Part shown: piece by piece, positions 447-7,184 of the stretch
How the letters are laid out: each line of letters opens with the position of its first letter
Position numbering within the stretch: the stretch's first letter is position 1
NCBI RefSeq assembly: GCF_010211765.1
Contig: NZ_PDWO01000016.1
Location: 1 to 64,000 of the forward strand
Length of the DNA: 64,000 nt
Direction: 5' to 3'
From: Pseudoxanthomonas kaohsiungensis
Lineage (GTDB): Bacteria; Pseudomonadota; Gammaproteobacteria; Xanthomonadales; Xanthomonadaceae
The notes under the pieces: model-generated
Seen by the model: the letters and a program-made list of their open reading frames with translations, nothing else
The model's database searches: none
What the model was told of the DNA's origin: nothing
Translations under genes and position numbers: made by a program

Positions 447-1706
447 TCAATGGCCGGGTGCGGCCACGCCATCGCCGCCGCGCAGCGAGTACAGCGGCTC
501 CAGCAGCCATTCGTGGAGCTTGCGGCGCTCGCCGAGGATGTCGGCTTCCAGCAGCATCCCCGGGCGCAGCGGTTCGGGCCTGCCGTAGGCCAGCACCTCC
601 TGGCGGTCCAGCGCGACCAGGATCCGGTAATGCGGCTCGGACGACGGCGCGCCGGCAACAGGGGGAACCGCGCTGCGCGAGATGCGGGCCACGCGCCCAC
701 CCTGGTGGCCGAACTTCTGGAACGGATAGGCCTGGTAGCGCAGCCGTACGCGGTCACCCGGCCGGATGAAGCCGATCGCGCGACTGGGCACCTGCAGCTG
801 GGCCTGCAATCGCGCACCCTCGGGCAATAGGCTCAGCAACGGCTGGCCGGGCTGCACCGCCTGGCCGGGCTCGACGAAGCGATGGGCGACCAGGCCCGCC
901 AGCGGTGCCTTCACCAGCACGCCACCGTCGGCCTCATGGCGGTAACGCTCCTGGGCCAGCAACGCGTGTTCGCGTCGCGCGGTCGCCTCGATGGCTTCGC
1001 GCTGGGCCGGCAGCCCGGCCAGCGCCTGCTCCAGCCCGGCGATCTCGCGCGCCAGCGCAGTGGCCTGGCGTTCGAGCACCTGCCGCGCATTGAGCATCTC
1101 CAGCATCGCCTGCTCCTGCTGGCGCACCTGCACCACGCTGACATAGCCGGAGGCGGCGACCTCGCGGTAGCGCTCGGCGGTCTCGCGTCCCAGCCGCACC
1201 TGCGCGTCGCGCGTGGCGATGCCCGCGCGCACCTGGCCCAGCTCCGTGCGCAGCATCGCCAGCTGGCGCTGCTGGCCCTGCTCCTGGACCGCCAGCTGCG
1301 CGAGCTGGGCCTGCGCCAGCTGCGCGCTCGAGGAATCGCGCTCGTCCAGCCCACGGCCGATGACGGTGTGGGCATCGGCACCGCTCGCGGCAACGCGCGG
1401 CAGGTCGATTCGCACCAGCGCCTGGTCGCGGGCGACGCTGGCGCCCTCCTCGACCGTCATCCGGCCCACCATGCCCGAGGTCGGGGCGACCACCGTGGAC
1501 ACGCCGAGGTCCGGCACCAGTTGGCCACCCACGCGCGAGCGGTGCGCGTATTCCCCGAACAGGAGCAGGTATGCGACCGCTCCCGCGGCCAGCAGCGCGA
1601 ACACGGCTCCCACCCACACCGGCATGGGCTGGGCGAGGGAGATCCTGCCGAGCCAGTCCTGTCGCCGCGCCTGTACGACCTCCGGACGGAAGAGCGGCGC
1701 ATTCAT
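447..1706 (-). CDS. HlyD-family periplasmic adaptor of the bacteriocin exporter
   Basis: This 419-residue protein is a membrane-fusion adaptor that would bridge the inner-membrane ABC transporter to a TolC-like outer-membrane channel. It has a short cytoplasmic N-terminus, one membrane helix at about residues 30-52, a barrel-sandwich (biotinyl-lipoyl-like) half from about 70, a long Ala/Gln/Glu-rich coiled-coil region at about 130-270, and a second lipoyl half beginning VLVKAPLAGLVAHRFVEPG. It resembles CvaA/MchE-type adaptors rather than RND adaptors, with no lipobox. Its ATG overlaps the transporter stop as ATGA, so the two are translationally coupled. No outer-membrane partner gene is present in the window, so a shared TolC elsewhere is inferred. 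Confidence 0.9.
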   Translation of the reverse strand: MNAPLFRPEVVQARRQDWLGRISLAQPMPVWVGAVFALLAAGAVAYLLLFGEYAHRSRVGGQLVPDLGVSTVVAPTSGMVGRMTVEEGASVARDQALVRIDLPRVAASGADAHTVIGRGLDERDSSSAQLAQAQLAQLAVQEQGQQRQLAMLRTELGQVRAGIATRDAQVRLGRETAERYREVAASGYVSVVQVRQQEQAMLEMLNARQVLERQATALAREIAGLEQALAGLPAQREAIEATARREHALLAQERYRHEADGGVLVKAPLAGLVAHRFVEPGQAVQPGQPLLSLLPEGARLQAQLQVPSRAIGFIRPGDRVRLRYQAYPFQKFGHQGGRVARISRSAVPPVAGAPSSEPHYRILVALDRQEVLAYGRPEPLRPGMLLEADILGERRKLHEWLLEPLYSLRGGDGVAAPGH

Positions 1707-3853
1707 GCCGGCAGGCCAATGATCGACGTGCCGATCCCGCCGACGGACTCCATGGCCGGCGCGGCGCCGGCAGCGAGGCCATCGCTGCGCGGCCTCTCGC
1801 AGATCCGGCCATCGCGAAGCTCGAGCACCCGATCGGCGCTGGCGATGGTTTCGGGGCGATGGGCGATGATGATGCGGGTCAGGTGCAGGCGCCGGACCGC
1901 CTCGTTGACTTCGCGTTCGCGCGCGACGTCGAGGTGGCTGGTCGCTTCGTCGAGCACCAGCAACTGCGGCTTCCGGTACAGGGCACGGGCGAGAATCACG
2001 CGCTGCTTCTGGCCGCCGGACAACGTAGTGCCCATGTCGCCGATCAGGCTGTGGTAGCCCATCGGCATGGCGGCGATCTCGTCGTGCACGGCGGCCTGCC
2101 GGGCCGCTTCCTCGATCCGGCGCGGGTCCGCATCCTCGTCGCCGAAGGCGATGTTCTCGGCGATGCTGCCGGCGAACAGGTGGTCGTCCTGCATCACCGC
2201 CGCGACCAGCTTCCGGTAGGACGCACTGCCCAGCTGCCGGATGCCGATGCCGCCCCAGCGGATTCCTCCCTCGGTCGCCGGCAGCAGCCCCAGCAGCAGC
2301 TTGGCCAGGGTGGTCTTGCCGCAGCCGGAGGCGCCGACGATGGCCACCGACTCGCCCGCCCCGATCCTGAAGTTGCAGTCACGCAGTACCCATGGCTCGC
2401 CCTCGGCATAGCGGAAGCCGAGCCCGACCGCCTCGATCGCCGCATCCGCCGGCGTCCCGGTTTCCGGCAGGCCGCTGTCGGACTCCGGCTCGGCCAGCAC
2501 GATGTCGGCCAGGCGCTCTCCGTGCAGGCGCAGCATGCGGAACTCGACCCCGCGGTCGATCAATGCCGCCACCCGCTGCGCGAACTGGTCCTTGTAGGCC
2601 AGGTACGCCACCAGCATGCCGACCGAGAACGCGCCCTCCAGCGTGAGCAGCGCCCCCATCCAGATCACCGCCACCCGTTCGATGCCGAACACCAGCTGGC
2701 TGGCAGCCTGGAAGCCGATGCCCATCTGCGCCAGCCGAACCTCCCGGTTGACCGTCTCGCCCATCAGGTTCAGCCAGGCGGACTGGCGGACCGGTTCGCA
2801 GCGCGCCACCTTGACCGACTGCATGCCGCGCAGGGTCTCCAGCAGGTGGCCCTCCTGGCGCGCCGCCGCCACGATGTGCTGCTCGGTGCCTTCGCGCAGG
2901 GCGCCGAACGCCAGCAGCCGGATGCACAGGTACAGCAATGCGGCCACCAGCGTGACCAGCGCCAGTCGGGGGCTGTACAGCAACAGCATCGACACCGTGG
3001 CGACCGCCATCATGCCGTCGATCACCACTTCGACGAACCCGGTGGTGACCGTGCGCTGGATCGCCTGCACGCTGCCGAAGCGCGAGATCACGTCGCCGAG
3101 GTGCCGCTTCTCGAAGTAGCCGAGGGGAAGCCGCAGCAGGTGCGCGAACACGCTGGCCGTCCACTGCATGCCCAGCTGCATGGACAGCGCCAGCACCGCC
3201 CAGCCCCGCAGCGCACCCGTGCCGACCTGGAGCAACGCGGACAGGCCGAAGCCGATTCCGAGCACCACCAGCAGGTCGCGGTCGCCCGCGACGAGCACCT
3301 GGTCGACCACCCATTGCATGAAGAAAGGCGCGAGCAGGACGAATACCTGCAGCACCAGCGAAAGCGCGAATACGACGGCCAGGGCGCGCCAGAAGCCCGA
3401 TACCGGACCGGCAAGATGGCGCAGCGGGATCGACAGGGGCTGCCGCTCCGGCTTGAACCCGGCCGCCGGCGACAGCTCCAGCGCCACCCCGGTGAAATGG
3501 CGCGACAGCTCTTCGGCGGAGACGCGCCGGCTGCCGTTCGCCGGATCGATGATCGAGGCGCCGCGCGGACCCGCCTTTTCGAGTACGACGAAGTGGTTGA
3601 GGTCCCAGTGCAGCACGCAGGGTGTACGCAACTGCGTCAGCTCCCCCAGCTCGAGCCGCAGCGCGCGGCCCGACAGCCCCAGCCGCGCGGCGACATCCAG
3701 CAACCGCGACAGGCTGGCGCCCTTGAGCGAAAGCGGAAAGCGGCGACGCAGCTCGCGCAGCGGCAGCACCATCCCATGGTGCGAGGCCACCATGGCCAGG
3801 CAGGCCAGTCCGCATTCGGCGGGTTCGGCCTGGAGGATGACAGTCCTTGTCAC
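1703..3853 (-). CDS. C39 peptidase-containing ABC transporter (bacteriocin processing and export)
   Basis: This 716-residue PCAT protein cleaves a double-glycine leader and exports the mature peptide across the inner membrane. The N-terminal C39 peptidase has the catalytic Cys14 (PAECGLAC), His87 (NHFVV) and Asp103 (IIDPANG). A six-helix ABC membrane domain spans about 130-420. The nucleotide-binding domain has Walker A GASGCGKTT near residue 506, signature LSGGQKQR near 610, Walker B LLVLDEATS and an H-loop IIIAHR. All key residues are intact, so it should be active, unlike degenerate C39 relatives. The start is GTG at 3853, preceded by a purine-rich stretch. It lies 39 bases after the CPBP stop and overlaps the HlyD start by four bases. 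CvaB/MchF-type microcin transporters are the closest functional analogues. Confidence 0.95.
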   Translation of the reverse strand: MTRTVILQAEPAECGLACLAMVASHHGMVLPLRELRRRFPLSLKGASLSRLLDVAARLGLSGRALRLELGELTQLRTPCVLHWDLNHFVVLEKAGPRGASIIDPANGSRRVSAEELSRHFTGVALELSPAAGFKPERQPLSIPLRHLAGPVSGFWRALAVVFALSLVLQVFVLLAPFFMQWVVDQVLVAGDRDLLVVLGIGFGLSALLQVGTGALRGWAVLALSMQLGMQWTASVFAHLLRLPLGYFEKRHLGDVISRFGSVQAIQRTVTTGFVEVVIDGMMAVATVSMLLLYSPRLALVTLVAALLYLCIRLLAFGALREGTEQHIVAAARQEGHLLETLRGMQSVKVARCEPVRQSAWLNLMGETVNREVRLAQMGIGFQAASQLVFGIERVAVIWMGALLTLEGAFSVGMLVAYLAYKDQFAQRVAALIDRGVEFRMLRLHGERLADIVLAEPESDSGLPETGTPADAAIEAVGLGFRYAEGEPWVLRDCNFRIGAGESVAIVGASGCGKTTLAKLLLGLLPATEGGIRWGGIGIRQLGSASYRKLVAAVMQDDHLFAGSIAENIAFGDEDADPRRIEEAARQAAVHDEIAAMPMGYHSLIGDMGTTLSGGQKQRVILARALYRKPQLLVLDEATSHLDVAREREVNEAVRRLHLTRIIIAHRPETIASADRVLELRDGRICERPRSDGLAAGAAPAMESVGGIGTSIIGLPA

Positions 3854-3892
3854 ACCTGCACCCTCTCTCGTCAGTTCACTTACCTAGCCCAA

Positions 3893-4570
3893 TCAGAAGA
3901 AGCCAAAGCCGGACGTGAGGTACCAAGCCATAACTATGGCATTCACTGCACCATGAACAACCGCTCTCTGAAGCGTTCCAATGTTCTTACTCAGCGCCAA
4001 CCAACAAAGCACCATCGAAAGAATGAAAGACCATGCCACTGCATTTCTATGAACTAGGGAAAAAACTGCGGATACGACAACCGCCGACAACCAAGGCGTG
4101 GCCAGAATCGCCCCTCCACGAAGCAAAAGATTCCTGACCACCTTCTCTTCAAAAATTGGCGCGGTGACTATCGAGCTCGACAAGCCGACGAGAACAGCGA
4201 CTTCGCTACCGGCAGCAAGATCGGGGAATCGTGTCCTGCCCCATGCAAAAACAACCACCCAGAAGATAGCCAAACTACAACCGAGCAATAGAAGTGCCGC
4301 GGCGCGCTTAAGAGTCCAAGATGCAACATGCGGTTCGGGGTAAAGCTTTAGGAGAATTACCGCGAGAAGAAGTTCGGTTAGTGGCTTGGCGCCGGCCACT
4401 GCAAAAATCTCTCCTAAGCGAATCAGGCCGGCAGCCAATACCGTCGCGAGGACTCCAGCCCCTAGAAATTGCCACCCAGCGGCACGCGAACCGGGCGGCG
4501 TGCGCCCGGCGCGCCTGAACGAGGAAGAGCGCGAGCGCTCTTCCTCGGATTGGTCACTTGATGCGTTCAA
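3893..4570 (-). CDS. CPBP-family intramembrane metalloprotease, candidate bacteriocin immunity protein
   Basis: This hydrophobic protein of up to 225 residues has about five or six membrane helices. All three CPBP (Abi/CAAX protease) motifs are present: EE141-142xxxR146 (FEEKVVRN), F170xxxH174 (FSLVH) and H206xxxN210 (HGAVN). CPBP proteins act as self-immunity factors in several Gram-positive class II bacteriocin loci, and some process prenylated or secreted peptides. Its place directly between precursor and exporter makes immunity the first guess, with an extra maturation step as the alternative. No ATG is available near the N-terminus; the longest frame uses TTG at 4570, overlapping the precursor stop by 17 bases, so the start is uncertain. 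The gene is visibly AT-richer than its neighbours, suggesting transfer. Confidence 0.8.
   Translation of the reverse strand: MNASSDQSEEERSRSSSFRRAGRTPPGSRAAGWQFLGAGVLATVLAAGLIRLGEIFAVAGAKPLTELLLAVILLKLYPEPHVASWTLKRAAALLLLGCSLAIFWVVVFAWGRTRFPDLAAGSEVAVLVGLSSSIVTAPIFEEKVVRNLLLRGGAILATPWLSAVVVSAVFSLVHRNAVAWSFILSMVLCWLALSKNIGTLQRAVVHGAVNAIVMAWYLTSGFGFF
4521..4546 (-). other. Perfect 12-bp inverted repeat just after the bacteriocin precursor stop
   Basis: GAGGAAGAGCGC at 4521-4532 is exactly complementary to 4535-4546, with two bases between them. It lies 7 bases beyond the precursor stop and inside the N-terminal codons of the CPBP gene if the TTG start is used. No T-run follows on the minus strand, so it is more likely an mRNA-stabilising or attenuating stem than a full terminator. 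This is the usual place for a device that makes precursor mRNA exceed exporter mRNA. Confidence 0.7.
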
Positions 4571-4748
4571 TGATGCCGGGGACCGTGACAGGACTGGCCG
4601 CCAGGAAATTCCACACCGCCTTCCCCGCCGCAGCCCAATCGGAAGCCGAACCGGTACACGACAGAGACGGATCCTTCGACACGGTCACGGTGCACTCCAG
4701 CTCCCCACCAGCAACCGCCCCCACCTCATCCACAGTCAGACTACGCAT
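4554..4748 (-). CDS. Class II bacteriocin / microcin-like precursor peptide with double-glycine leader
   Basis: This 64-residue peptide starts at ATG 4748, preceded by AAGGAG 8 bases upstream; a longer upstream start (4796) would add 16 residues without a good ribosome site and spoil the leader. Residues 1-15 (MRSLTVDEVGAVAGG) form a classic double-glycine leader, with the conserved L-x-x-x-E-x-x-x-V-x-GG spacing cut by C39 transporters. The predicted 49-residue core starts ELECTV and has two cysteines at core positions 4 and 16, a disulfide candidate. These are followed by a Trp-containing segment (DWAAAGKAVWNFL) and a C-terminal VPGIIERIK. I recognise no known bacteriocin in the core. The exporter encoded downstream supports export by a dedicated system. 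Confidence 0.85.
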   Translation of the reverse strand: MRSLTVDEVGAVAGGELECTVTVSKDPSLSCTGSASDWAAAGKAVWNFLAASPVTVPGIIERIK

Positions 4749-4851
4749 GACATCCACTCCTTGGTTGTATGCATGACGGGCCACCCTGGTCCGCATGGCC
4801 GGCTTGGCCGGCCGCCTACCTATCGCACAACCGCCTCGCCGGCGGGATAGT

Positions 4852-4889: not shown

Positions 4890-7184
<2,295 letters not shown>

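Follow-up and report, generated by a model that had tools for sequence, protein, structure and literature searches.

A microcin-type operon with a CPBP protease homologue as the probable immunity protein in Pseudoxanthomonas kaohsiungensis, at a chromosomal site of exchangeable peptide-partner cassettes

Can a CPBP-family intramembrane protease protect a Gram-negative cell from a bacteriocin that leaves through a microcin-type exporter? The question is raised by a four-gene locus on the minus strand, at positions 447–4748, of the window, by which we mean the whole stretch of 64,000 nucleotides (nt) analysed here (Pseudoxanthomonas kaohsiungensis, contig NZ_PDWO01000016.1, positions 1–64,000; the window start is the contig edge). 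The host is placed here in the family Lysobacteraceae, order Lysobacterales. Open reading frames (ORFs) and family scans gave the order precursor, CPBP, C39 exporter, and HlyD adaptor (Table 1). Sequence comparison suggests that this is likely a class II microcin-type bacteriocin operon in which immunity comes from the CPBP protein, probably through cleavage of the peptide.

The four genes, the catalytic motifs of the CPBP protein, and an active-looking C39 exporter had been proposed at this place in a first-pass annotation, and all of them were found. The CPBP motif set is EExxxR, FxxxH, and HxxxN; the window copy, which scores above the PF02517 cut-off, carries E141, E142, R146, F170, H174, H206, and N210, with all six catalytic residues in place. 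The exporter has Q8, C14, H87, and D103 in the peptidase and Walker A and LSGGQ motifs in the ATPase. The genome holds several marks of a class II microcin system, namely a small precursor with a GG/GA leader, a C39 ATP-binding cassette (ABC) exporter with its catalytic triad, an HlyD adaptor, and a TolC-family protein (12 stretches matching PF02321). The adaptor matches TIGR01843 at 122.3 bits, under the cut-off of 208.65. Assignment of the exporter to the NHLP bacteriocin type was rejected at 494.1 bits for TIGR03796 (cut-off 853.3) and 366.4 bits for TIGR03797 (cut-off 709.4). The CPBP and C39 genes are 39 nt apart, the C39 and HlyD genes overlap by 4 nt, and we infer a single transcription unit for all four. 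Within this stretch, ORF reading gave the CPBP gene, and no other gene besides, as a candidate for immunity.

The leader of the precursor is MRSLTVDEVGAVAGG, and the core, beginning ELECTV, is acidic (isoelectric point 4.9) with two Cys residues at C4 and C16. A strict leader pattern, run as a control over both strands of the whole 64-kb window, found the precursor alone. Among 13 aligned precursors, every leader ends in GG or GA, and the Cys pair is present in 11 of the 13 cores, the leader being better conserved than the core. The core had been described as unrecognised, which agrees with our searches of Pfam, NCBIfam, and PHROG, where no family matched. A sequence search of solved structures gave chance-like matches (the best to flagellin, E 0.0017). 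The AlphaFold2 model (mean predicted local distance difference test score, pLDDT, 70.5; predicted template-modelling score, pTM, 0.42) tentatively places both Cys in a beta-hairpin followed by two helices, and the best match in a fold search of solved structures had an E value of 1.3.

The CPBP protein models as a helical membrane-type protein, the model being wholly helical (mean pLDDT 89.2, pTM 0.82). Its best match among solved folds is SpdC (6u0o; E 3.9e-3, probability 1.00, template-modelling score, TM, 0.54), with nothing at 0.001, and a CPBP profile found no match among PDB sequences. Two PF02517 matches in total occur in the 3.76-Mb genome of the host. The GC content of the CPBP gene (3893–4500) is 53.9%, compared with 71.2% for the window, and no 600-nt stretch of the window is richer in AT than the one beginning at about 3850 (52.7%).

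To what extent do the precursor and the CPBP gene stay together in other genomes? Relatives were counted at an E value of 1e-4 or better. With the single precursor sequence, 18 of 395 family genomes matched, 11 of them (window included) at 4e-7 or better. A ten-row precursor profile matched 19 of the 395 and added G093 (1.7e-6) and G326 (4.9e-5) below 1e-4; a search of 299 genomes of the order, 11 of which matched, added G581 from another family (1.1e-11). A search of 369 genomes of the class returned only the window, one congener, and one chance-like match; the precursor family therefore appears essentially confined to Lysobacterales in the sampled genomes. The chance-like match, G866, was read and dropped. 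Relatives were thus counted in 13 other genomes (G113, G117, G239, G016, G215, G077, G104, G203, G010, G087, G093, G326, and G581). A CPBP gene directly follows the precursor in 12 of these 13 (9 of 10 among genomes found by the single sequence alone; 13 of 14 with the window counted, in six genera and two families). Given just two PF02517 matches in the whole host genome, such pairing exceeds chance. All six catalytic residues are retained in 11 of 13 aligned CPBP proteins, although the window copy is only 21–51% identical to the twelve others. The pairing of precursor and CPBP gene, on which the first-pass annotation had built a microcin-type operon with a CPBP protein in the immunity position, is thus kept elsewhere, and its worry that the cluster might prove unrelated in other genomes was not borne out.

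The exporter behaves differently from this pair. C39 and HlyD genes adjoin the pair in 4 of 14 genomes (window, G010, G093, and G326), and in G581 the end of a C39 gene alone is seen beside it, at the contig edge. Judged by these loci, the conserved unit is the precursor plus CPBP, and the exporter, often encoded away from the locus, is not part of it; therefore the exporter likely acts in trans in many genomes. A C39 search of the 10 other genomes apart from G093, G326, and G581 found a protein with an open frame of at least 700 amino acids (aa) in 9, and in 8 of these it lies away from the locus.

Several weaker matches were set aside. Seven of the 18 single-sequence matches had E values of 0.001–0.01; six were inspected, none with a CPBP match, and the seventh (G383) was left out. 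Among profile matches weaker than 1e-4, G044, G347, and a second site in G117 were inspected and showed no CPBP match, and G340, G143, G045, G059, G398, and G554 were left out of follow-up. Although it lacks a CPBP match, the G347 site does carry C39 and HlyD genes together with further double-glycine ORFs, so weak matches of this kind may reflect the leader alone. A search of plasmids matched neither the precursor nor the CPBP protein. A contig scan with the single precursor sequence gave no match, and one with the CPBP alignment A3 gave two loci.

The precursor core and the CPBP protein also diverge together. Across 12 loci, core and CPBP distances correlate with r 0.66 (p 0.0001). For the seven loci with maeB, the gene upstream of the cassette, where core identity is 27–71%, r is 0.87 (p 0.0023), and it stays at 0.87 (p 0.0029) as a partial correlation on maeB. 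Neither the core nor the CPBP distances follow those of maeB (r −0.21 for each). Because core and CPBP distances correlate with each other while maeB distances do not, the pair would seem to move as a cassette independently of maeB, as expected of toxin-immunity pairs that are exchanged together.

These observations suggest the following mechanism. The C39 domain would cut after GG as the peptide is exported through the HlyD adaptor and a TolC protein. The released 49-residue core, probably closed by a C4–C16 disulfide, would kill or inhibit related bacteria. In the inner membrane of the producer, the CPBP protein would give specific immunity, most likely by cleaving peptide that arrives at the membrane; binding without cutting is less likely. 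The precursor and CPBP genes would enter the maeB 3' flank as one cassette, which in many genomes would have to be served by an exporter encoded elsewhere.

Several observations weigh against this proposal. Linkage alone could produce the correlated core and CPBP distances, so the correlation is not proof of cognate recognition. One catalytic Glu is replaced by Lys in the CPBP protein of G016, four of the six residues are gone in that of G104, and the precursor of G077 has no CPBP gene after it; because of these losses, either catalysis is dispensable in some loci or the copies have decayed. In G087 the precursor core is out of frame behind a recognisable leader, and G016 has no ABC-length C39 protein, only one of 297 aa. 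The window copy itself has a doubtful start. In 9 of 9 relatives checked, an in-frame ATG or GTG lies 42–57 nt past the precursor stop, and the window has neither at that place (4439–4570). The alternatives are a TTG at 4570, overlapping the precursor, and a TTG 115 nt past the precursor stop, which would cut into the first predicted CPBP helix. A rare start, a sequence error, and decay are candidate causes, and because the start found in all nine relatives is missing, the window copy could be weakly made or decaying.

If the CPBP protein does protect the cell, it may do so without proteolysis: as a binder or chaperone in the membrane, it would mask the target or trap the peptide. The best fold match is to SpdC within the SagB-SpdC complex (6u0o, E 3.9e-3, TM 0.54), where this protein of CPBP fold has the role of a partner; the 2 of 13 aligned copies without a full catalytic set point the same way. 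Retention of all six residues in the other 11, at such low identity to the window copy, speaks against this reading, and we consider protection without cutting rather doubtful. A further departure from the proposal would assign the CPBP protein to maturation or signalling, in a second cut of the peptide or in signal processing, with immunity provided elsewhere. The conserved catalytic residues would fit this equally, as would a weak match to MrtJ (NCBIfam, 16.7 bits, cut-off 75), the CPBP protease of a C-terminal sorting system. SilX, a CAAX protease of a streptococcal bacteriocin region, is a precedent that also counts against an immunity role, since it is reported to be required for bacteriocin production but to play no part in immunity (PMC9298176). 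The intact C39 domain, however, already explains leader removal, the four-gene stretch offers no other immunity candidate, and the precursor persists in G104, with its degenerate CPBP protein, and in G077, which has none. A maturation or signalling role is therefore unlikely in our view.

The peptide itself could be something other than a weapon. Double-glycine leaders also serve signalling peptides, and the acidic core would suit a signal or another secreted small protein with the CPBP protein as its receptor or turnover protease. The core varies, cassettes are exchanged at a hotspot, and precursor-partner pairs differ at one site, all of which is more usual for weapons and immunity than for a conserved signal and makes such a role quite improbable. 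A bacteriocin whose CPBP partner confers immunity, probably by cleavage, remains the explanation we prefer.

What kind of site does this cassette occupy? From its sequence we take the gene upstream of the operon to be maeB; a match to it turned up in 16 of 17 congeners, and the stretch downstream of it was covered for up to 6 kb (1.2 kb in G272). With the strict leader pattern, a double-glycine ORF was found downstream of maeB and on its strand in 14 of 16 Pseudoxanthomonas genomes; the two exceptions are G188, with a CGG variant, and G136, where just the remnant of a type C partner is left. The antisense strand of the same stretches, taken as a control, gave one match. The loci compared were the window locus (447–4748), L021, L023, L025, L028–L030, and L121–L129, and they show that the maeB 3' flank holds exchangeable cassettes of a double-glycine peptide and a partner, of at least five kinds, which we labelled A to E by eye. 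Type A is the precursor-CPBP pair, present in 7 of 16 genomes, with the precursor out of frame in G087. Type B (L123, L025, L030, L128, and L129) combines a pair of small peptides with a tiny protein, probably a membrane protein, of about 45–70 aa. Type C (L121, L125, L025, and L030) has a peptide with a CxGLPD motif followed by a 264–277-aa HExxH protein, which reads HE(S/A)FH in 4 of 4 intact copies and matched neither Pfam (two copies scanned) nor NCBIfam (one copy scanned). In type D (L122, L124, and L030:5866–6399) the partner resembles signal peptidase II; the sole copy scanned, that of L122, gave 31 bits with PF01252 (cut-off 25) and 22.7 bits with NCBIfam lspA, below its cut-off of 73.95, and two candidate Asp positions, presumably the catalytic ones, are kept in 3 of 3 copies. 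Type E pairs a peptide with a CPBP-like protein that reached 18.4 bits with PF02517 (cut-off 22.4) in one of three scanned copies and gave no match in the other two.

The partners in types C, D, and E may likewise be proteases that give immunity. C39 exporter genes were also seen downstream of maeB, in L128 (G172), from about 1.5 kb past maeB, and in L089 and L092 (genus g44); because of these, the maeB site appears to carry exporters as well as cassettes. As a tentative possibility, which we hold at well under even confidence, the operon would be a single cassette within a "peptide plus protease" island of the chromosome, where unrelated double-glycine peptides are joined to putative proteases of different clans (CPBP, signal-peptidase-II-like aspartic, HExxH, and divergent CPBP-like). 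On this view, immunity by destroying the peptide, in the membrane or the periplasm, would be a general strategy open to swapping, served by a common exporter and, in some cassettes, by a common 5' leader.

This leader is an 85-nt conserved stretch before the precursor, present in seven cassettes (four of type A, one of type C, and two of type E). In a search of 17 congeners, seven genomes had one match each with an E value of at most 1.7e-6, all of them at the maeB site; eight weaker matches (E 5.8e-6 to 0.0098) lay elsewhere in six genomes. The predicted fold of the leader has two stem-loops and is weakly supported: both partners have changed in 3 of the 22 predicted pairs, and the covariation term is −0.34. 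A second predicted element, the stem-loop past the precursor stop codon, has a z score of at most −3.45 in 10 of the 11 loci (the exception being L022, z 0.87). Its sequence differs between loci, so it is the position that is kept and not the letters; it may control how much precursor is made relative to its partner. A consensus scan around the precursor found neither a sigma-70 promoter nor a T-run terminator. At the other end of the operon, 3' of the HlyD gene (191–418), lie repeats of the repetitive extragenic palindrome type, GCCCATC..ATGGGCGAC, in three direct copies and one inverted.

Table 1. Features of the CPBP-linked microcin-type locus and its surroundings (window positions)
Feature	Position	Strand	Details
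Double-glycine precursor peptide	4554..4748	-	64 aa: 15-aa leader, 49-aa core
CPBP (Rce1-like) intramembrane protease homologue, proposed immunity protein	3893..4570	-	PF02517 29.6 bits, cut-off 22.4; start codon doubtful
C39-peptidase ABC exporter (peptidase-containing ABC transporter, PCAT), 716 aa, GTG start	1703..3853	-	PF03412 111.9, PF00664 105.1, PF00005 109.4 bits
HlyD-family periplasmic adaptor, 419 aa	447..1706	-	PF13437 61.2 bits
Predicted stem-loop directly past precursor stop codon	4520..4547	-	z −3.80 in window
Conserved 5' leader with ribosome-binding site, 85 nt	4746..4830	-	Also found in other cassette types at the maeB site
maeB-like malic enzyme gene, chromosomal anchor of the cassette site, outside the operon	4890..7184	-	Flank comparison

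How does the locus compare with known systems? Gram-positive class II bacteriocin loci carry CPBP (CAAX/Abi) genes, and to our knowledge such loci lack both an HlyD adaptor and an outer membrane step like those of the window. A Vibrio cholerae microcin studied by Kim et al. in 2024 has "proteolytic immunity" in the title, and its immunity protein reportedly cleaves the microcin. Some CAAX proteases are reported to confer immunity (PMC9298176). The type B cassettes resemble Cdz of Caulobacter in their two-peptide plan; a CaaX protease gene near cdz is described as not belonging to the Cdz system. Among the literature matches listed, nothing concerned the present locus, and absence from print is not claimed.

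The closest likeness is to microcin S. The first-pass annotation had called CPBP immunity beside a microcin-type exporter unusual for a Gram-negative. This does not hold, and a claim of novelty is rejected: in the mcsS-mcsI-mcsA-mcsB operon of E. coli G3/10, the CAAX-protease-family gene mcsI gave immunity and a truncated gene did not, as PMC3316575 reports. The same source describes the four components found here, a class II precursor, an adjacent CAAX-family gene (McsI, 216 aa), an HlyD adaptor, and a C39-type ABC exporter; the likeness is one of components. A 2022 survey lists the microcin S immunity protein, at 216 aa, as the largest known (PMC9746304). G093 (L084) shares the gene order too (precursor, CPBP, HlyD, C39), whereas the window has C39 before HlyD. 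The window precursor is also shorter, at 64 aa against 124 and 117 aa for two Klebsiella microcin S variants, and its helical membrane-type CPBP model differs from McsI, for which PMC3316575 gives no predicted transmembrane helices. Klebsiella pneumoniae plasmid NZ_CP088124.1 (L099) likewise has CPBP (a type II CAAX endopeptidase, PF02517 56.9 bits), C39, and HlyD genes together; unlike in the window, its CPBP gene comes after C39, and the precursor is unannotated. The two CPBP proteins appear to be remote relatives at best (BLASTP 24% over 84 aa, E 0.003; profile comparison 37% probability, E 0.00035).

If our explanation is correct, CPBP-linked immunity extends from an enterobacterial plasmid microcin to a chromosomal peptide family of Lysobacterales, where natural pairs that have diverged by degrees would allow cognate specificity to be tested. 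The part most worth following is the maeB cassette site with its several protease-like partners, which pose the question of whether proteolysis of one's own bacteriocin is a common immunity route in Gram-negatives. The four-gene build is already known from the plasmid-borne microcin S of E. coli; the window cassette sits at a chromosomal maeB site, and its peptide-protease pair belongs to a swappable set at that one place.

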